A stretch of 64,000 bases of DNA. Origin: Tumebacillus lacus. Lineage in GTDB: Bacteria; Bacillota; Bacilli; Tumebacillales; Tumebacillaceae. The stretch covers positions 1 to 64,000 of the forward strand of contig NZ_JAPMLT010000005.1 of assembly GCF_026410385.1 (NCBI RefSeq), read 5' to 3'. This document shows, one piece after another, positions 36,515 through 45,431 of this stretch; position 1 is the first letter of the stretch, and each line of letters begins with the position of its first letter. A program made the translations under genes and the position numbers. The notes under the pieces are model-generated. The model did not search any database, was not told the origin of the DNA, and worked only from the letters and a program-made list of their open reading frames with translations.

Positions 36515-37594
36515 ATGATCGAGTTTGACAGAAAAGCGGCGCGCACGGCCGGGCTCGGCCTGCTCGCTTGGTATGAAGCCAACAAACGCGACCTGCCCTG
36601 GCGCAGGCTGCGCGATCCTTATGCGATCTGGGTCTCGGAGACGATGCTCCAGCAGACCCGCGTCGAGACGGTGATCCCGTACTGGGAGCGCTGGCTGACC
36701 CTCTTCCCGACGGTGGAGGCGCTTGCACAGGCGCTCGAGAGCGACGTGCTCAAGGCGTGGGAGGGGCTTGGGTACTATTCCCGTGCTCGCAATTTGCAAA
36801 AGGCGGCACAGGCGGTCTGCGAACGTCACGCCGGCGTCGTGCCCGACACGCTCGACGAGATGCGCGCCCTGCCCGGCGTGGGGCCGTACACGGCGGGGGC
36901 GGTGCTGTCGATCGCGTATGACCGCGACGTGCCGGCTGTGGACGGGAACGTATTTCGGGTGCTGTCGCGTCTGTTCTTGATCGAGGAAGACATCATGAAG
37001 CCCAAGTCGAGAAAGACGTTTGAGAGCATCGCCGCCTACATGATCCCGGAAGGACGAGCCGCCTCGTTCAACCAAGGGCTGATGGAACTGGGGGCGACCG
37101 TCTGCATCCCGAAAAACCCCCGCTGCCACAACTGCCCGGTACAAGAGACATGCATGGCATTTGCCGAGGGCGTGCAGGAAGAGTTCCCCGTGAAAGAAAA
37201 GAAAAAGCCGCCGAGACCTGTGGATATGACGGCCGCCCTCCTGCGAGACGGGGATCAACTGTTGATCCGCCGACGACCGGACACCGGACTTTTGGCCGGC
37301 CTTTGGGAGTTCCCAGGCGGTGAGCGGGCAGAAGGCGAGACGCTGGAGCAAGCGCTGGTGCGCCATCTGCAAGAAGCGCACGGGATCACGGTGCAGCCGG
37401 AGAGCCTGTTCGCGACGGTTGAGCATACGTTTAGCCACCTGCATTGGACGATGCGCGTGTATGACTGCGCCATCGTGGAGGGCACGGTGCGCGTGAGTGA
37501 AGATGTGAGATGGGTCCCTGTGGATAAACTGGAGGACTACGCGTTTCCAGTGGCACACGGGAAGATCGTGAAGCAACTCGGTGGATTACTGTGA
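36515..37594 (+). CDS. mutY: A/G-specific adenine DNA glycosylase
   Basis: This 359-residue MutY removes adenine mispaired with 8-oxoguanine. It has the HhH-GPD fold (about 15-220) with ETMLQQT, LPGVGPYTA and the catalytic Asp in VDGNVFRV, then the Fe-S cluster motif CIPKNPRCHNCPVQETC, and a C-terminal NUDIX-like 8-oxoG recognition domain (about 235-355, LWEFPGGER). Near-full family length. A perfect DnaA box lies inside its last codons. Confidence 0.97.
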   Translation: MIEFDRKAARTAGLGLLAWYEANKRDLPWRRLRDPYAIWVSETMLQQTRVETVIPYWERWLTLFPTVEALAQALESDVLKAWEGLGYYSRARNLQKAAQAVCERHAGVVPDTLDEMRALPGVGPYTAGAVLSIAYDRDVPAVDGNVFRVLSRLFLIEEDIMKPKSRKTFESIAAYMIPEGRAASFNQGLMELGATVCIPKNPRCHNCPVQETCMAFAEGVQEEFPVKEKKKPPRPVDMTAALLRDGDQLLIRRRPDTGLLAGLWEFPGGERAEGETLEQALVRHLQEAHGITVQPESLFATVEHTFSHLHWTMRVYDCAIVEGTVRVSEDVRWVPVDKLEDYAFPVAHGKIVKQLGGLL

Positions 37595-37699
37595 GTGTAT
37601 CCACAGTCATGTGGGTAACTATTGTGAATATTGTGGACAATTCACCCGCGCCTTGGGGATAAACCTTGGGCGGGGGTGTTTTTGCTATCTTTACCCACA
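37519..37699. other. Cluster of five DnaA-box-like 9-mers
   Basis: On the minus strand TTATCCACA (37519-37527) is a perfect DnaA box; TTACCCACA (37610-37618) and TTGTCCACA (37632-37640) each carry one change. On the plus strand GTATCCACA (37597-37605) and TTACCCACA (37691-37699) each carry one change. Five in 181 bp is dense. The site is not beside dnaA/dnaN, so titration or a regulatory cluster is more likely than an origin. Confidence 0.45.
37642..37685 (+). terminator. Probable terminator after mutY
   Basis: CACCCGCGCC and GGGCGGGGGTG form an imperfect GC-rich stem followed by TTTTT. Confidence 0.6.
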
Positions 37700-37702
37700 A
37701 GA

Positions 37703-37737
37703 GAAAAACCTTGAACGGCGGGGGAGCCGATCAAGGT
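37703..37737 (-). terminator. Terminator of the SUKH gene
   Basis: On the minus strand ACCTTGATCGGC pairs with GCCGTTCAAGGT, followed by TTTTTC. Confidence 0.75.
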
Positions 37738-37745
37738 CAGGGGTG

Positions 37746-38207
37746 TTAGAGTTCTTGGTTTACCAGATCCAATAGAAAATCACCGAAATCAGATGCAACC
37801 ACTGCAAACGTTTGTTGGTCTACATCAATCCCAGGGAAAAATTGCACGACAGTTGGTTCATGGGGATGATTAAAATCGAGACAGAGGAGTTCCCCGTTGC
37901 CAGAGTCATAGATCACAAGCAAATGATTCGGCAGTTTGATCTCTCGCCTTTCCGTTAGCGTATACCAGATGGCATCCGGAACTGAGGAATTCTCAAAATC
38001 GTCACCAATAATCCCATAAATCTCTTGTGCGCCAAAATTGCCCGCCCCAAAGGACTTGAGAAAATCCAAGTATGTACCTGAAAATTTCAGTCCGGTCGCT
38101 TCTTGCGCGAAGGCGATAAGTTCATCGGAACGTGGTCCAATGAAAAAGCCTTTTTCCTTGTTTGTCAGGATCTTGGCTTTTGCTTCTAGATAGGTGTCCA
38201 AACTCAT
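37746..38207 (-). CDS. SMI1/KNR4 (SUKH) family immunity protein
   Basis: This 153-residue protein has SUKH-type features: the N-terminal helix ELIAFAQEATGLKFSGTYLDFLKSFGAGNFGAQ followed by YGI, VIYDSGNGELLCLD and a C-terminal FGDFLLDLVN. Its ATG overlaps the toxin stop codon (ATGA), with GGGGAGG inside the toxin gene, so the two are translationally coupled. SUKH proteins neutralise nuclease toxins of polymorphic toxin systems. Cognate immunity to the upstream LHH nuclease is a strong inference. Confidence 0.85.
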   Translation of the reverse strand: MSLDTYLEAKAKILTNKEKGFFIGPRSDELIAFAQEATGLKFSGTYLDFLKSFGAGNFGAQEIYGIIGDDFENSSVPDAIWYTLTERREIKLPNHLLVIYDSGNGELLCLDFNHPHEPTVVQFFPGIDVDQQTFAVVASDFGDFLLDLVNQEL

Positions 38208-39529
38208 GGATGATCCTCCCCGTCACTTAAAGTCGCAGCCCTGTTTTTCCAGTACTCTGATTTCCATTTATTAAATTCAGTTCTGTTTATACCGGACGGA
38301 ACTGTATGAGGGTTAATATGAAGTACTTTGGTGTTTTCTTGATGGAAAGTTTGTGTAACTTCAGCGATGGAACTTTCATTTCTTTGTGTCATGTGATGTA
38401 GATTGACAGATTTCCCATCCGGACCAATCGGTGCCAAACCCTGTTGCATTCTCTGGATGTTTGTCCGCCCCATAGCATCAGTCTTATTAGGGTCAATAAT
38501 ATCATTTCTTTGGTAGACTTTCACTTCCTTAAACTCGGTTACTCGATTCCAATACATATTCTCAGGAATATAACCCTGACTACTTTGAGATCGCTTGAAA
38601 CTCCCGCCGACAGCTGTGATTGCGGCGGCCATGCCGAGGACGGCGCCGTCTTGGTAGTACTGTTTCATCGCATACTCGGTGTATCCTTCTTGCTGGATCA
38701 GCTCTTTTCCGTGGGCACCGTTTTGGATCTGGTCTTGCCAGTGCTTGTTTCGTTCCTCCTCGGCCGAGATCCTGCTGATTTCGTTTTCTAGGTCATCGGC
38801 TGTCAGTTTGGAATAGGATTGCTCACAGAAGACGCGGGCAGCCTCTGTACGGTCTTCATCAGAGAGCCAGAGGGATTGAGATTGTTTGTGGTACTCGATC
38901 AGGATGGTCATGGCGTCGGATCGGCGGTTGGCTTCGATTTGATCGGCTGTCAGCGTGGGTGCGCCTGTTTCTTCTTCGAGCAGATCGGGGTGTCGACTGT
39001 AATACTCCTGCCAGTGCTTCGGAAGACCTTCGAGAAGGGGAGAAACGGCATCCGCACCGGGTACTAAATTCGGCGGGATCATCTTGGCGATCATCTGAAA
39101 CTCAGTCGATGCCTGTGAGTCGGCGTTGCTCGCTTCGGCATCGGCTTGATGTCGCAACTGAGCCGCTTGGTGACGGAGGTGCTGACGGGTGTGGATACTG
39201 TCGAGGGAGTCATCCCCATACTCGAATGCCTGCTGGTCGAGCCGGTCGGCATGGCGGCGAAGTTCCAGCACCTGCTCCATTCGTATCGCGAACCGGCTTA
39301 ATGTATGGGCGACGCTCTCAAAGGCACTGCTTGCTTTCTTCACATAGGCTGCCAATCGCTCGCCACGCAAAAGGAAAGACTGCGATCCTTCTCCCGACCA
39401 TCCGTCCGATCCTTGTCGGACGCTGGTGGCCGTTTGTTCCAGTTGGAGCGACTGCCGTTGCAACTCCTGCGCGGCCGCCGCAAATCGGTGGGCTCCGTAA
39501 CGCAACGTATTTGGGTCGGCTGTAATCAA
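38204..39529 (-). CDS. WXG-type secreted polymorphic toxin with C-terminal LHH nuclease domain
   Basis: This 441-residue protein starts at TTG 39529 with AAGGAG 8 nt upstream. Residues 1-100 form a WXG100/ESX-like helical hairpin (GWSGEGSQSF holds the W-x-G turn). A long helical middle region follows. The C-terminus has NLHHMTQRNESS and HINPHTVPSGINRTEFNKW, matching the LHH type of HNH/ENDO VII nucleases. No Sec signal, as expected for type VII secretion. No T7SS machinery is in the window. Confidence 0.85.
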   Translation of the reverse strand: MITADPNTLRYGAHRFAAAAQELQRQSLQLEQTATSVRQGSDGWSGEGSQSFLLRGERLAAYVKKASSAFESVAHTLSRFAIRMEQVLELRRHADRLDQQAFEYGDDSLDSIHTRQHLRHQAAQLRHQADAEASNADSQASTEFQMIAKMIPPNLVPGADAVSPLLEGLPKHWQEYYSRHPDLLEEETGAPTLTADQIEANRRSDAMTILIEYHKQSQSLWLSDEDRTEAARVFCEQSYSKLTADDLENEISRISAEEERNKHWQDQIQNGAHGKELIQQEGYTEYAMKQYYQDGAVLGMAAAITAVGGSFKRSQSSQGYIPENMYWNRVTEFKEVKVYQRNDIIDPNKTDAMGRTNIQRMQQGLAPIGPDGKSVNLHHMTQRNESSIAEVTQTFHQENTKVLHINPHTVPSGINRTEFNKWKSEYWKNRAATLSDGEDHP

Positions 39530-39551
39530 AGGTTGTGTCTCCTTTTATTCC

Positions 39552-39977
39552 TTAGTGCTTGGTGTTGATAACTACGGAGCCGTCCACGTATAATTTCCAC
39601 CGACCCATGTCTTTGACGACCGGGATTTGGATGGGCGTTGGTTTGAAGTCTTTCGAGGAGAGTTCCAATGTTGCCACGTACTGGTTGCCGTCGCCTTTCT
39701 TTATCGAGATGAACTTTACTTTTTCGCGGTCTTCTTGCTTGATTCGCTGTTCATACTCCTCTCTGAGTTGGGCTTTGTTCGTTACACGAGTATCGATCAC
39801 GTACTTTAACATCGTGTCAATGTCATCGTTTTCGTAGCCGTTCAGGTACTCCTGAACAGATCTGGCTGCCAGTTGCTCATCATCTTGCGAGGCTGTCGTT
39901 GAATTGACGAAAACACCGCCGGCGATCAGTGCGCCTGCAACGAGTGCAGCGGTAAGGAATTTGGATGTACGTGTCAT
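39552..39977 (-). CDS. Exported small protein, NTF2-like
   Basis: This 141-residue protein starts at ATG 39977 (MTRTSKFLTAALVAGALIAGG), with AAGGAG 10 nt upstream. It has a signal peptide without a lipobox Cys, then a domain whose EYLNGYENDDIDTMLKYVIDTR helix and C-terminal strands look like an NTF2/DUF4878 fold. It lies 22 nt upstream of the toxin gene on the same strand and is probably cotranscribed. A secretion-accessory role is speculative. Confidence 0.7.
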   Translation of the reverse strand: MTRTSKFLTAALVAGALIAGGVFVNSTTASQDDEQLAARSVQEYLNGYENDDIDTMLKYVIDTRVTNKAQLREEYEQRIKQEDREKVKFISIKKGDGNQYVATLELSSKDFKPTPIQIPVVKDMGRWKLYVDGSVVINTKH

Positions 39978-40114
39978 GTCTTGGTTCACTCCTTGTTGTA
40001 TGTCTAGCATTTTTTGGTTTTAAATGGTAATGATAATGTTATAATATCAGTATTCGATTGTGAGTCAATGTGCTTTCGTGAAAATCGCAATTTGGACGAT
40101 GAGGAGGAAGTCTA

Positions 40115-40288
40115 ATGAAAAACCGCTTTATGATTGGGTTGGCAGTAGCGGTGGTGACAGTCGCGACTGTGTCAGGATTTGTATCGACTAAAAACGAAAT
40201 GGCTCAAAAGTCAACGTCCGAGCCATCAGTACTCCGTCAACACGCGCAGTTTTCTCCACCAGACCCATCGATAACTCGTTATTCGTAA
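40115..40288 (+). CDS. Putative pheromone propeptide, copy A
   Basis: This 57-residue peptide begins MKNRFMIGLAVAVVTVATV, a positively charged start plus a hydrophobic Sec-type signal. It ends with a polar tail containing FSPPDPSITRYS. GAGGAGG lies 7-8 nt upstream. The first five residues and the upstream ribosome-site context match the peptide gene at 41734. The C-terminal PP-D-P-S-I aligns with PP-N-P-I-I there. It is closed by its own terminator before the receptor gene. Its small size, Sec signal and polar tail fit Phr/NprX/PapR-type propeptides. Confidence 0.7.
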   Translation: MKNRFMIGLAVAVVTVATVSGFVSTKNEMAQKSTSEPSVLRQHAQFSPPDPSITRYS

Positions 40289-40294
40289 TTCTTT

Positions 40295-40328
40295 AAACCC
40301 CTTGCCTTCGTAGATGGCAAGGGGTTTT
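40295..40328 (+). terminator. Terminator after propeptide A
   Basis: AAACCCCTTGCC pairs with GGCAAGGGGTTTT. Confidence 0.85.
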
Positions 40329-40549
40329 CATATCGGATGAACAATTTTGAAGTAGTTGCGTACCAAAATAGACTCTGTTTGAAGCATGTGCAGATTGTCA
40401 TTAATCTTTTCAATATAATTAGAAATTCGTACAGATTATTCACTGGATGACCTATGCAATGAACAAGATATCCTTTATAATTGGCTGGTGATAATGTTTA
40501 TGGTCTATTTACTTTTATCTCTGTTTTGCTGATGAGGGGGATCGCGTCG

Positions 40550-41734
40550 GTGTCTACTGTTGAAAATACATCGGTTGCAAATGAAGTCAAAATGACTCTG
40601 CATAGAAGAATCGCAGAGATCATGCAAGAAAAGGGAGACTCCTTTTCGATCCGGGCTTTTTCATCTCGTTTAGGAATGAGTCGTGAAACATTGCGGCTGA
40701 TCGTGGCAGGTGAGCGTCCCGTAACTCAACTTGAATTGGAACGGATCGCTACTGGTTTGGGTCTGTCCGTCGAACGGCTGAAGAAAATGGACACTCTCTA
40801 CAAGGAGCAGGAAGTAGACCTCGTCTTGCACGCTACGAAAAGAACGAAAGTCATGTTGATGCGTGCTCTTGATTTTGCTAAAGAGCTGGTCGCGGTGTCC
40901 AGAGGAGGAACTGAACGTGGCAGTAATTTGCTTAGGTTGGGCAGAATCCAGTACTTTTTGCAGCAATACGATGAGGCCCATCATTCCTTTCAAAGCGCAT
41001 TAAAATATGCCGAAATCGTAAATGAGCAATTTGGCGAAACGTACCTACTTCATCGCTCTACGGGACTCTTGATGCTGACCCATACAATCCGCAAGGAGTA
41101 TTCGAATGTGGAGCATATGATTCAGTTGATGGAAACTGTTTTCCACCTGAATCCTGAAAAAATGGGCTACGTATATTACACACGGATGAAATGGAATGAG
41201 CATAAAGGGAATATCCGACTCGCAAAAGAAAACGCATATACAGCATTAGATTGGTTCAAACAAACTTGCGACATGGAGCAGATCGGCAAGGCGATGATCA
41301 ACGTCGCCCATTTTGAATACTGCACAAAAAATTACGAGGAGTCGGCACGTGTTCTTAACTCGGCGATAAAAATCCTGGAGCCTTTCGATTTTTCACTTCT
41401 GTTCGCCGTCAAGGAGTACACAAAGACGTTACTTAGACTTGGTGATTCTGTTGCAGCGATCAAGTTCATCGAGGAGTACTCGTATCTTGCGAACGACTAC
41501 CCTGATTTGCGGGGGAAGATTCAAATCATGTACACGCATGCAAAAAATGACCCCCAATATGCTGCAAGGATAAGTGAAGACCCTTCAATCAGTGCTGGTG
41601 TACGTTCATTAGCTTGCAAAAATCTTATGCAGTTCTTCAGTTTAAAAGATGACGCGAGCTCCGTAATGTTTTACTATAAGAAAGGAAGAATGATTTCAAA
41701 CAAAAGTGAGTTCTTCGACGAGGAGGAAATTTGA
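40550..41734 (+). CDS. HTH-TPR regulator, probable RRNPP-type peptide receptor
   Basis: About 394 residues from GTG 40550, which has GAGGGGG 10 nt upstream; a TATAAT lies at 40476-40481, so the longer reading from 40481 overlaps the promoter. An XRE-type HTH (about 15-75, SSRLGMSRETLRLIVAGER) is followed by repeated helical pairs of TPR type to the end (for example LGRIQYFLQQYDEAHHSFQSALKYAE). This is the architecture of NprR/PlcR/AimR-like receptors. Its stop codon shares one base with the ATG of a propeptide gene, the classic receptor-pheromone pairing. Confidence 0.85.
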   Translation: MSTVENTSVANEVKMTLHRRIAEIMQEKGDSFSIRAFSSRLGMSRETLRLIVAGERPVTQLELERIATGLGLSVERLKKMDTLYKEQEVDLVLHATKRTKVMLMRALDFAKELVAVSRGGTERGSNLLRLGRIQYFLQQYDEAHHSFQSALKYAEIVNEQFGETYLLHRSTGLLMLTHTIRKEYSNVEHMIQLMETVFHLNPEKMGYVYYTRMKWNEHKGNIRLAKENAYTALDWFKQTCDMEQIGKAMINVAHFEYCTKNYEESARVLNSAIKILEPFDFSLLFAVKEYTKTLLRLGDSVAAIKFIEEYSYLANDYPDLRGKIQIMYTHAKNDPQYAARISEDPSISAGVRSLACKNLMQFFSLKDDASSVMFYYKKGRMISNKSEFFDEEEI

Positions 41735-41868
41735 TGAAAAACCGCTTTGGGCAAGTGATGCTTTTTGCAGTGGTGGCGATTGCGATCATGCAGTTCACAA
41801 CGACCGCCATCGTTCAAACGAATGCTGAAACGATTCCGCCGAACCCGATCATCGCTGATAAGAAATAA
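41734..41868 (+). CDS. Putative pheromone propeptide, copy B
   Basis: This 44-residue peptide has a MKNRFGQVMLFAVVAIAIM signal-like N-terminus and the tail NAETIPPNPIIADKK. The ATG overlaps the receptor TGA by one base (TGATG), and AGGAGG within the receptor's last codons lies 7 nt upstream. It is immediately followed by a terminator. It is the likely cognate pheromone precursor of the receptor; the mature peptide probably comes from the Pro-rich C-terminus. Confidence 0.75.
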   Translation: MKNRFGQVMLFAVVAIAIMQFTTTAIVQTNAETIPPNPIIADKK

Positions 41869-41875
41869 CTTGTTC

Positions 41876-41904
41876 CCCCTCGTATAAAAACGAGGGGCTT
41901 TTTT
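41876..41904 (+). terminator. Terminator of the receptor-propeptide operon
   Basis: CCCCTCGT and ACGAGGGG around ATAAAA, followed by CTTTTTT. Confidence 0.92.
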
Positions 41905-41966
41905 GTACACCAGTCCGTTATGACAATTGCCACAACAAATAAATGACCATTTTATACTTGCTATTG

Positions 41967-41998
41967 CCGACTCAATATCGTGGAGTCGGTTTATTCTT
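41967..41998 (+). terminator. Hairpin with T-rich tail upstream of the second HTH-TPR gene
   Basis: CCGACTC (41967-41973) pairs with GAGTCGG (41983-41989), followed by TTTATTCTTTTT. It lies about 50 bases before the start of the next regulator, so it could be a second terminator or a leader attenuator. Confidence 0.55.
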
Positions 41999-42039
41999 TT
42001 TACACGGAGTCATTTATTTTGGGATGGTGATTGTAAAAG

Positions 42040-43329
42040 ATGTTTTCACTCGGACAACGCATACGTGAACTTCGCCTCAAACAGGGGCTGACTCAGATCG
42101 ACTTGGCAAAAGAGCTGTGCACGCCCAGCATGATCTCGCAGATCGAGTCGGACAAAGCGAGACCTTCTTACAAGATGCTGTTTGCCATCGCGGAACGGCT
42201 GGATGTGCCGCTGGAAAAGTTGCTGGTGGATGTGGATCTGAACATGGAATACGTGTCGACCTACAAAATGGCGCGGGCGATGGTGAGGTCTAAACGGTTT
42301 GCTTCCGCGATCCCGTTGCTGCGCGACCTGCTGGAGACGCCGCGTGCGCAGATCTCGACGATGGACATTCTCTTTGAACTGGGTGTGTGTTTGGTTCAAA
42401 CGAACGAACTGGCAGAGGCGGAACAGACGCTGACTCAGGTGCAGGAATTGGCGATCATGCGGCAGGATCATCAGTTGCTCGCCGCTGTCTGGAAGGAACT
42501 CGGCGAGATCGAGTTTCGACACAGGCGGTACCAACTCGCGGTCCATCACTGGCAGAAGGCTCTGGCGAATGCGGAACAGATGGACGAGCAGGACGTGTAT
42601 TTGAAAGCGGAACTTTTGTATCGCATGGGGCAGACGTACAACCAGACGGGGCAGGCCGTCGAAGCTCTGGAACTCTATGACCGCGCTGCTCGGATGTACG
42701 AGAGTATGGAGAGCCTTCACGAGATGGCGCAGGTGTATCTGGGGCTTGGCATCTCGTATCAGCAGATGAACGATCATGAGAAAGCGGCCGAGTACTCGGA
42801 GCGGGCTGCGTCGATCTTTGAGGGCTTGGAGAATGTGTTGATGACGATCAAAACGGAGATTCACAACGCCTCCTTGTACGCGCAAACGGGTCGGGTCGTG
42901 GAAGCGGAGGAGATGCTGATGCGAGCGATCCATAAGTTGAGCGGCATGGGGGACAAGGAGATCGAAGGGATCGCCTATGCGGAACTGGCGCAGGTGTTTT
43001 TGTGCAAAGGGGATATGGATCAAGCAGAAGCGGCTTGTCAGCAAGCGCGGATGCTCCTCCCTGAACTGCATCTGGATCAGGCGAAGATCAATCGCACTCT
43101 TGGCGAGGTGGCGCTGTGCCGAGGGCAGACAGAGGAAGCGATCCGCCGGTTGCAGATGGCCGTGGATGGATATAGACGATTGGATGCGGCGCGGGAGTGC
43201 GAGGAGACGATGTATCGACTGGCTCAGATCTACCGCAGCCAAGGCGAGTATGAGCGACAGGCAGAGGTGCTGGAGAAGATGCGGGATGTGGTGAAGGAGG
43301 CGTTGGGGAGGAGAGGGATAGAGTTGTGA
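42040..43329 (+). CDS. Second HTH-TPR transcriptional regulator (NprR-like)
   Basis: This 429-residue protein has an N-terminal XRE HTH (about 1-65, IRELRLKQGLTQIDLAKEL) and then about nine TPR units to the end (for example GLGISYQQMNDHEKAAEYSERAASIFE). It has higher GC than the first receptor and only distant similarity to it. No propeptide ORF with a signal sequence follows; a terminator begins 10 nt after the stop. It may use a peptide from elsewhere or respond to the adjacent ones. Confidence 0.88.
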   Translation: MFSLGQRIRELRLKQGLTQIDLAKELCTPSMISQIESDKARPSYKMLFAIAERLDVPLEKLLVDVDLNMEYVSTYKMARAMVRSKRFASAIPLLRDLLETPRAQISTMDILFELGVCLVQTNELAEAEQTLTQVQELAIMRQDHQLLAAVWKELGEIEFRHRRYQLAVHHWQKALANAEQMDEQDVYLKAELLYRMGQTYNQTGQAVEALELYDRAARMYESMESLHEMAQVYLGLGISYQQMNDHEKAAEYSERAASIFEGLENVLMTIKTEIHNASLYAQTGRVVEAEEMLMRAIHKLSGMGDKEIEGIAYAELAQVFLCKGDMDQAEAACQQARMLLPELHLDQAKINRTLGEVALCRGQTEEAIRRLQMAVDGYRRLDAARECEETMYRLAQIYRSQGEYERQAEVLEKMRDVVKEALGRRGIEL

Positions 43330-43338
43330 GGGGAGATT

Positions 43339-43383
43339 GAAGAAAAGGAGAAACAATTTTGGACGTCTCTCCTTTTCTTCATC
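43339..43383. terminator. Bidirectional terminator
   Basis: GAAGAAAAGGAGA and TCTCCTTTTCTTC form a perfect 13-bp stem between the convergent HTH-TPR and transglycosylase-HNH genes. Confidence 0.88.
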
Positions 43384-44890
43384 AAGTTTTTTTGAGGATA
43401 TCTTTCAAAGTTTCGACCTTGATCCACGGTCGTTTTCGGTGAAGCATGCGATGGCAGTTTGAACATACGAGGGCTAAGTCTTCTACTTTTGATTCTTTCT
43501 CTCCTTGCATTTCGGAGAGAGGTTTGATGTGGTGTGCTTCGATGTAGTCGATGCCGATGTCACCGTATCTTTCATAGAAGGAAAAAAGACAAACTTGGCA
43601 ACGCAGGAGAGGGTCTTGTTGCTTCGCGATCTGTTTCGCTTTTTTAATTAGGGATTGGCTTCGCTCGTAGGAGCGATGTATTTTGTATTGAGCGCGGCCT
43701 TCCGGGAAGTACTGTTCATCTTCATCGAATGGTGGCTCGGTGGTTGGGTTTGATTCTTCATGTAACTGTTGGTAGTAAATATAGGTGTTATGAAACCCGC
43801 GCCTTCTGTTTCGATTATTTCCACGGAAGATGATGACGTCGATACCGATTTCAGTGCAGATGTTGCACTTGCAGTCTTTCCACGGTCTGTCTTCCAAGGT
43901 TCGACGGTACGCATTTCGGTTTTGGTTACGCTCTTCACCGAGGTGTTGGTCGTATGCGAGGATCGCGTCAAGGGTGGAGTCGATGTCTTTTTCACCGGCA
44001 TCGAATGCGCGGATGGCAGTAAGAGCCTCGGTTTCAAGCTGTTTGTAGGTGTCCAAAGAACCACCATTCTCGGCGAGTGCTTGTTTGATACGGCCTTTAT
44101 TTTCTTGTGCTTCCGGTATACGAATGGCCGTATATGTGTTTCCATTATCCATAAAGTAATTTTTGCGCTTGTCCATAAAGGCACGCCGCAGAGGGGAGGC
44201 AGAATCAAAGGAAGTAACTCCGAGTGTATGTAGATGCTTCATAAAAGAAGCGTCCCTCAACACGCCACTCAGATGAAGTTGGAAATCAGTATCAGGGATC
44301 AGCGGTGTGATCGATTGCAAGATCTCAATTAATTTTTGATCAGGTGTTCGAGACAATCCGCCTAGGGAAACGGCCCTGTAGCCCATCTGGATCAGGGCGG
44401 CTACTTCGTATCGGCATGATTCAATTTCAACGCCGCCTGCGACTCCAACTGGGGTGAAGGTGCAATGGTTTTGTTTGTGCTTCTGAATAAATTCTTGAGC
44501 GCGGGACAATGTGAGCTCATAGTTTGACATCTCTACAGAAAGACCGTAATCGAACTCAAGCGACTGATAAAATTCTATTGCTTCGTCTGGCGTGTAGGCT
44601 TTGTGGTCAGCGTTTCTATAGGCTCCACAATCACCCATTAGCTGGACATGGTCGGGAAGGCGCAGCATGTTACGCAGTCCGAATTGGCGAATGAGTTTCT
44701 GTTTGCTTGGTGATTTTAAGCTCGAAGCTGAGATCAAGAGTCCGTCATAAGTGGGAGTATTGAAAATTTCATGGGCGTAATTGTCATGGTGCAACGGACG
44801 ACGCTTGGGGGTTGTCTGGTCGGTCAGGAAGTTAAATCCCGGATCTACGCGGTCATTATTTTCTGAGATGAAGTATTTCAGATCGGGCAA
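43382..44890 (-). CDS. DpdA-like TGT (7-deazaguanine transglycosylase) fused to an HNH endonuclease
   Basis: 502 residues from TTG 44890, which follows an in-frame stop directly. Residues about 1-260 resemble DpdA/TGT enzymes: DRVDPGF and YAHEIF near the start, GDCGAY (Asp87), GVAGG, GGLSRT, and SFDSASPLRR with the candidate nucleophile Asp229. A Cys/His cluster follows (DCKCNIC 339-345, FRGNNRNRRRGFHN 355-368). The C-terminus (431-486) is an HNH domain: CQVC, EAHHIKPLS, CSNCHRMLH. DpdA proteins swap DNA guanine for a 7-deazaguanine such as preQ0; McrA-like HNH enzymes cut modified or foreign DNA. One protein that both modifies and cleaves, or a base-exchange-guided nuclease, is inferred. No other dpd or preQ0 gene is in the window. 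AT-richer than surroundings. Confidence 0.82.
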   Translation of the reverse strand: MPDLKYFISENNDRVDPGFNFLTDQTTPKRRPLHHDNYAHEIFNTPTYDGLLISASSLKSPSKQKLIRQFGLRNMLRLPDHVQLMGDCGAYRNADHKAYTPDEAIEFYQSLEFDYGLSVEMSNYELTLSRAQEFIQKHKQNHCTFTPVGVAGGVEIESCRYEVAALIQMGYRAVSLGGLSRTPDQKLIEILQSITPLIPDTDFQLHLSGVLRDASFMKHLHTLGVTSFDSASPLRRAFMDKRKNYFMDNGNTYTAIRIPEAQENKGRIKQALAENGGSLDTYKQLETEALTAIRAFDAGEKDIDSTLDAILAYDQHLGEERNQNRNAYRRTLEDRPWKDCKCNICTEIGIDVIIFRGNNRNRRRGFHNTYIYYQQLHEESNPTTEPPFDEDEQYFPEGRAQYKIHRSYERSQSLIKKAKQIAKQQDPLLRCQVCLFSFYERYGDIGIDYIEAHHIKPLSEMQGEKESKVEDLALVCSNCHRMLHRKRPWIKVETLKDILKKT

Positions 44891-44962
44891 TCAGATCACT
44901 TCACTTTCAATGGCTGTAAAAAGTAATGAATCAATCGGTATACTACTTTTATAGAATAGCAC

Positions 44963-44991
44963 AAAAAAAGCGTCCCTTCATAGGGGCGCTC
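44963..44991 (-). terminator. Terminator of the minus-strand gene at 45012
   Basis: On the minus strand GCGCCCC pairs with GGGACGC, followed by TTTTTTT. Confidence 0.8.
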
Positions 44992-45011
44992 ATGTCTTCA
45001 CAGTAACTAAT

Positions 45012-45431
45012 TTAACTCACAGACCCGCATTGCACTTCATCCAACTCCACCACCGCTGACAGCCACACCGCCACCAACTCGCGCACCGGCTCCGTAATCT
45101 CTACAGCCGTGCCGCCTTCGTACATGCGTTGGTACAGGCTCTTCACCGATTGATCCTCGCCATGTTTGCGAGGGTGCTCCGGGCCGGTCAGGAGGTACAG
45201 GGCGGCTGCTTCTTGCAAGCCGCGCAAAAACTCGCGGTCTTCCTCTCCTGCAAACAGGAGCGTAATCTGGCATGGCCCGTGGGTGCTCTCCAAGATGATG
45301 TGGAGCTCCAGCGCTTGTTTGGTCGGGAGGACTTTCGCCTCCAGCGAGGTGCTGAGCACCGGGCAGGGCAGGACGCACCCGGTTACATACGGGGCATACT
45401 GACGGTCGAACAGCAGAAGGCCGGTTTCCAT
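45012..45431 (-). CDS. Hypothetical protein
   Basis: This 139-residue soluble protein begins METGLLLFDRQYAPYVTG. AAAGGAG lies 10 nt upstream and a terminator follows. It is a mixed alpha/beta protein with ELHIILESTHGPCQITLLFAG as its most regular strands. I do not recognise the family. It is isolated between the transglycosylase-HNH gene and a divergent gene. Confidence 0.7.
   Translation of the reverse strand: METGLLLFDRQYAPYVTGCVLPCPVLSTSLEAKVLPTKQALELHIILESTHGPCQITLLFAGEEDREFLRGLQEAAALYLLTGPEHPRKHGEDQSVKSLYQRMYEGGTAVEITEPVRELVAVWLSAVVELDEVQCGSVS

Follow-up and report, generated by a model that had tools for sequence, protein, structure and literature searches.

This study concerns one gene in a 64,000-nucleotide stretch of Tumebacillus lacus DNA, hereafter the window, in which a relative of the DNA-modifying DpdA enzymes is joined to an HNH nuclease. 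The locus raises the question of what the two parts do together. The first-pass annotation had suggested that one chain could insert a 7-deazaguanine and cut. Alternatively, the DpdA domain might have lost its enzymatic role and serve the nuclease in another way.

One intact gene encodes both parts

The fusion gene (43382..44890, reverse strand) is a single intact ORF of 502 codons with a TTG start, matched by Pfam, NCBIfam and PADLOC profiles, and its DpdA part and HNH part lie in one protein, as initially read. An extended Shine-Dalgarno sequence (AAGGAGGTGATCT) is matched at 10 of 13 positions by AGTGAAGTGATCT (44893..44905, reverse strand), 2 nt 5′ of the TTG. On the 3′ side of the stop codon, a 17-nt inverted repeat (43338..43381) is a probable bidirectional terminator between the fusion gene and a convergent HTH-TPR gene.

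A frameshift or sequencing error joining two genes, which the annotation had named as a possible source of the junction, was rejected because HNH homologues align in frame across it from residue ~377-381, acidic linker included (50% over residues 377-501 for L003, 51% over 381-500 for L015). We also considered a concealed N-terminal DUF6884 remnant 5′ of the gene. There is no space for one, since only 121 nt separate the gene from its neighbour and a TGA immediately precedes the TTG.

The DpdA fold and catalytic aspartates are retained

Residues 4-378 (43757..44881, reverse strand) form a DpdA/TGT TIM-barrel core. They match the DpdA family NF041059 of NCBIfam with E 4.7e-115 and 384.7 bits, above the curated cut-off of 200 bits, and the fusion protein is also matched by the PADLOC DpdA profile (E 6.3e-110) and by the crystal structure of Salmonella DpdA, 7UI4 (E 1.5e-81). 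This bears out the original assignment of the N-terminus to TGT/DpdA. When an AlphaFold2 model was superposed, 7UI4 gave, among the structures listed, Z 37.1 over 369 residues with an rmsd of 3.0, and tRNA Tgt gave Z about 20, in agreement with the anticipated TGT fold. Mean pLDDT of the model is 82; the barrel is predicted with high confidence, and residues 343-406, covering the zinc-site and linker stretch, fall below 50.

The active site was compared through sequence alignment. The two aspartates picked out beforehand, Asp87 in a DCGA motif (44630..44632, reverse strand) and Asp229, the proposed nucleophile, in an SFDS motif (44204..44206, reverse strand), both match the equivalent Asp of 7UI4, and both positions hold Asp in 86/86 DpdA homologues compared. 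Profile alignment to the archaeosine TGT 1IQ8 places Asp87 on Asp95 and Asp229 within the FDSAS motif of the nucleophile; their TGT counterparts are the two catalytic aspartates, nucleophile included. Alignment with DpdA homologues further shows an intact zinc site (C340, C342, C345, H367) together with the motif RGNNRNRRRGFHN (43790..43873, reverse strand). The Cys cluster (C340, C342, C345) and the 'FRGNNRNRRRGFHN' segment, first listed as additional elements, are thus what DpdA normally has as its Zn site and C-terminal motif.

The base pocket is altered

Most of the strongly conserved residues that differ lie around the base. Profile alignment places the DpdA 'SVDH' and 'QGW' motifs on Asp130 and Gln169 of 1IQ8, residues that hold the base in the archaeosine enzyme. 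At the first position, the base-recognition Asp found in 86/86 homologues is replaced by Glu120, and at the second, where 77 of the 86 have Gln and 9 have His, the fusion protein has Gly152 (44435..44437, reverse strand). The segment after Glu120 is also shortened (residues 120-124, 44519..44533, reverse strand): the loop from Glu120 to Thr127 counts 6 residues versus 17-33 in every other sequence aligned, at least 11 residues being deleted and the invariant His with them. In addition, Asn123 stands at a column that is invariably Arg in the 86 homologues, the DCGAF motif has a deletion in place of its Phe, and Lys97 occupies the place of an invariant Pro. These pocket changes are seen in the fusion protein only, all 86 DpdA sequences compared with it keeping the residues concerned (Gln or His at QGW).

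Conservation in at least 90% of homologues singles out 74 columns, of which the fusion protein keeps 65 and has lost 9. Since 6 of the 9 lost columns lie in three pocket loops, while barrel and zinc site are intact, the losses are concentrated in the pocket (Fisher p 0.0024, or 0.023 with the deletion counted once, a descriptive value for three loops picked after the alignment was viewed). With the base-recognition Asp replaced and the adjoining loop shortened, the protein is a DpdA homologue by descent, and we do not class it as a working DpdA enzyme.

The HNH part is a stock effector module

The C-terminal module with its acidic linker covers residues 378-502 (43382..43759, reverse strand), and the HNH proper residues 431-485 (43436-43600, reverse strand; PF01844, E 1.4e-9). 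The four-Cys HNH domain is complete, as had been noticed: C431, C434, C476 and C479 are present, as are H453/H454, N478 and H484. The same module exists as a small stand-alone protein (L003) and is joined elsewhere to MrcB_N (L172, E 1e-52), to a weak EVE match (L174, E 0.0039), to an unnamed 'RDELILALDLYF' domain (L004 and L015) and, judged by eye, to winged-helix-like N-terminal domains in many prophages. It is a stock effector used modularly with diverse N-terminal domains. In the fusion protein, whose N-terminus is DpdA, no Pfam match was obtained to SRA, SBD, EVE or NEco, the known modified-base readers, and viral contigs held no close relative of the whole protein or of its HNH part.

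The gene lies in a recurrent insertion hotspot

Comparison with relatives delimits a variable island at 37592..45011, between mutY (36518-37591) and the gene at 45012-45431. In five relatives (G008-G012) mutY stands near the orthologue of 45012, or of 46237 where 45012 is undetected, and the island is missing. In a sister genus (G013) the same spot carries genes for a DUF6884-DpdA, a TGT paralogue, a protein of 248 aa, an NTPase of 1055 aa and an HTH-TPR regulator. The interval is therefore a recurrent insertion hotspot that took up DpdA genes in two genera. In the window, the DpdA-HNH fusion shares the island with two HTH-TPR regulators and with a WXG-LHH toxin and its SUKH immunity protein. 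The early description, which placed the gene in an island beside a toxin and its immunity protein, was accurate.

The toxin pair (37746-39529) is of the polymorphic type VII kind, with a WXG100-LHH nuclease toxin (PF14411, E 2.4e-27) and a SUKH immunity protein (PF14568, E 1.3e-24). Two short ORFs of the island, 40115-40288 and 41734-41868, have signal-peptide-like starts (MKNRF...) and share a 70-nt region of 70% identity; the second overlaps the stop codon of an HTH-TPR gene (40481-41734). Both resemble the pheromone precursors in receptor-peptide pairs.

A proposed DNA-targeting role for the DpdA domain

The nuclease module is one usually found alongside reader-type domains. Attached to it, a DpdA domain deprived of its pocket is best explained as a means of targeting DNA. 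With the base-holding pocket broken, it is therefore likelier to aim the nuclease at DNA than to mark DNA and cut. Our leading explanation, held tentatively, is that the fusion is a restriction nuclease of the modification-dependent type, aimed at DNA by a retired DpdA domain. The ancestor of this domain would be the DUF6884-DpdA protein encoded in a Dpd-like island of several genes; the domain would have lost the base-holding pocket and its partners and kept the barrel, the zinc site and the basic C-terminal motif. It would now bind DNA without base exchange, as the reader of a single-chain, type IV-like enzyme whose C-terminal HNH nuclease would cut or nick invading DNA, presumably in phage defence. 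The changed, more open pocket could prefer DNA with a 7-substituted deazaguanine, as found in many phages, though the exact target is an inference.

This explanation draws on the DpdA fold and the fusion, the pocket loss, the lack of DpdB and of a TGT paralogue in the host (see below), the joining of the same HNH to MrcB_N and to other N-terminal domains, and the absence of the island from five relatives. Exchangeable modification readers are already established for HNH enzymes such as SRA-HNH and SBD-HNH (PMC7461809), and GrwAB is an HNH-type system that restricts 7-deazaguanine phages (PMC12137116). Against it, a pure reader would have no use for the two catalytic aspartates, both of which are kept, and Glu120 could still contact guanine. 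The retained pair leaves two alternatives to a pure reader: residual base exchange with altered specificity, or guanine removal without replacement. More doubtful is a proposal with a wider reach, that a TGT-fold DNA-modifying enzyme has turned into a DNA reader or a guanine-removing warhead within a one-protein restriction nuclease, possibly specific for 7-deazaguanine phages.

Relatives of the DpdA part

A total of 425 DpdA loci came from 84,980 species genomes; among the best 80 of these, the closest relatives are DUF6884-DpdA proteins of Bacillota, at about 47-52% identity. They form one clade with the DpdA part (SH-aLRT 95), and they carry an N-terminal extension of ~275-290 residues and no HNH. 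This extension is a DUF6884 of the YaaA/DpdC kind in the G013 protein, with which the Paenibacillus plasmid protein aligns. The branch of the fusion protein measures 0.80 versus about 0.45 for its sisters, in a quick tree that places long rows unsurely; a long branch, which also counts against the targeting role, is expected in decay as well.

The survey of homologues that the annotation had called for brought no second fusion, neither in the best 80 of the 425 loci, nor in five viral DpdA found by profile search (none with a C-terminal HNH), nor in another 800 or so genomes from the same class and phylum. A DpdA gene adjoining the same HNH as a separate gene was likewise not found in those 80 loci. 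The fusion being known from one instance, there is therefore no conservation of it to show function.

Single occurrence and long branch keep open the reading that the gene is a recombinant relic, a decaying DpdA and an HNH that came together by chance in a defence hotspot and have no function under selection. Its partners are gone, and so is the DUF6884 domain that the Bacillota relatives carry at the N-terminus, which points the same way. However, an extended Shine-Dalgarno match precedes an unbroken frame of 502 codons, the HNH residues are all present, 65 of the 74 DpdA positions under strong conservation are retained, and the losses are concentrated in the pocket of a barrel predicted with high confidence. 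We consider a relic unlikely, while giving it slightly more weight than a two-in-one enzyme and more than the remaining rivals.

Partner genes and preQ0 supply

In the host genome no DpdB was found above cut-off, the best match reaching 23.7 bits versus a cut-off of 300. That weak DpdB/DGQHR match comes from a 520-aa protein (G000:C12:18501-18746, L119), possibly the product of a DGQHR-type defence gene. DpdB has been reported to be dispensable in some Dpd clusters. The genome carries one tRNA Tgt, and no second, DpdA-type TGT paralogue was found in it; a search of the same genome with the G013 NTPase, run without a positive control, gave no counterpart. The sole DUF6884 (DpdC-like) gene of the host lies on another contig, and no DpdD-K restriction gene was recognised among the part of the ORFs scanned at 38-50 kb. 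The host also has a queD-queE-queC operon, QueD and QueE being named by sequence and gene order. With this operon and the tRNA Tgt, the host makes preQ0, which is thus available; the modifying reading is therefore weakened and still stands.

Such a two-in-one restriction-modification enzyme would put preQ0 into host DNA through its DpdA domain and cut, through its HNH, DNA that lacks it. Asp87, Asp229 and the zinc site are retained, the host makes preQ0, and a single phage DpdA can insert preQ0 without DpdB (PMC6884629). Yet the base-recognition Asp and Gln/His are replaced and the neighbouring loop is short, unlike in 86/86 homologues, DpdB is lacking, and the HNH relatives are paired with reader-type domains, not with modifying enzymes. 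An enzyme that modifies and cuts is thus improbable, and less likely than the modification-dependent type of nuclease. From the first interpretation, the DpdA fold, the Asp pair, the single gene and the complete HNH stand; the insertion of 7-deazaguanine, as originally stated, is not supported, given E120 and G152 in the place of base-holding residues, the deletion that removed the invariant His, and the lack of DpdB and of a TGT paralogue.

A guanine-removing nuclease, in which Asp229 would attack C1′ of deoxyguanosine with no pocket for an incoming base, would leave an abasic or protein-linked site to be cut by the HNH domain. This would account for a nucleophile and a second catalytic Asp kept where the base-recognition residues are gone, but the missing pocket residues normally also hold the leaving guanine. 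To our knowledge, guanine removal without replacement has no precedent in the TGT family, and we hold this possibility to be slight. Very improbable, finally, is a DpdA domain that binds tRNA or other RNA, joined to an HNH that takes part in an abortive response by acting on nucleic acid: DpdA is homologous to the tRNA-modifying TGT, but by sequence the protein belongs within the DNA-modifying DpdA family, near 7UI4 and far from the separate tRNA Tgt of the host.

Comparison with known systems

The DpdA of the Dpd system (7UI4) and the fusion protein share the fold, the catalytic Asp pair, the zinc site and the RNRRRGFHN motif. The fusion differs in having lost the base-recognition Asp, the next loop and the QGW Gln/His, and in having an HNH attached, with neither DpdB nor a partner operon. 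Modular HNH enzymes (SRA-HNH, SBD-HNH, EcoKMcrA) have the same order of reader and C-terminal HNH effector, and the HNH of the fusion also occurs with MrcB_N; the N-terminal domain of the fusion, in contrast, is a DpdA enzyme fold, which we did not find reported as a reader. GrwAB is comparable as an HNH-type (DUF1524) nuclease system against phages containing 7-deazaguanine (PMC12137116), but consists of two proteins of unrelated domain make-up, whereas the fusion is one chain.

If the targeting role is correct, an enzyme fold for base exchange can end up as the recognition domain of a restriction nuclease, another type of reader would join the modification-dependent HNH enzymes, and the gene would be a one-gene candidate for restricting 7-deazaguanine phages. 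Either a reader or a guanine-removing enzyme would represent a new way of targeting or cleaving DNA. Should the fusion modify DNA after all, modification and cleavage would be combined in one chain, which is unusually compact for a Dpd-type system.

The DUF6884-DpdA proteins of Bacillota (G013/L002, Bacillus V59.32b L022, Paenibacillus L024-L027) are closest to the DpdA part, and the G013 gene occupies the same chromosomal hotspot; they differ by their N-terminal extension (DUF6884 where scanned) and the lack of HNH and, in G013 and Paenibacillus sp. 37, by an adjoining TGT paralogue and large NTPase. These two loci (L006 4206-11203 in G013; L009 9161-17015 on the Paenibacillus sp. 37 plasmid) represent a type of Dpd-like island in which no DpdB was seen; besides DUF6884-DpdA, it encodes a second TGT paralogue, a protein of about 247 aa and a 1055-aa KAP-like NTPase. 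The Paenibacillus sp. 37 plasmid also bears queC, a queD-type gene, queE and dpdJ. In a Bacteroidota MAG (L098 1095-2840), a DpdA carries DUF6884 at its C-terminus, the domain order being swapped relative to the Bacillota proteins.
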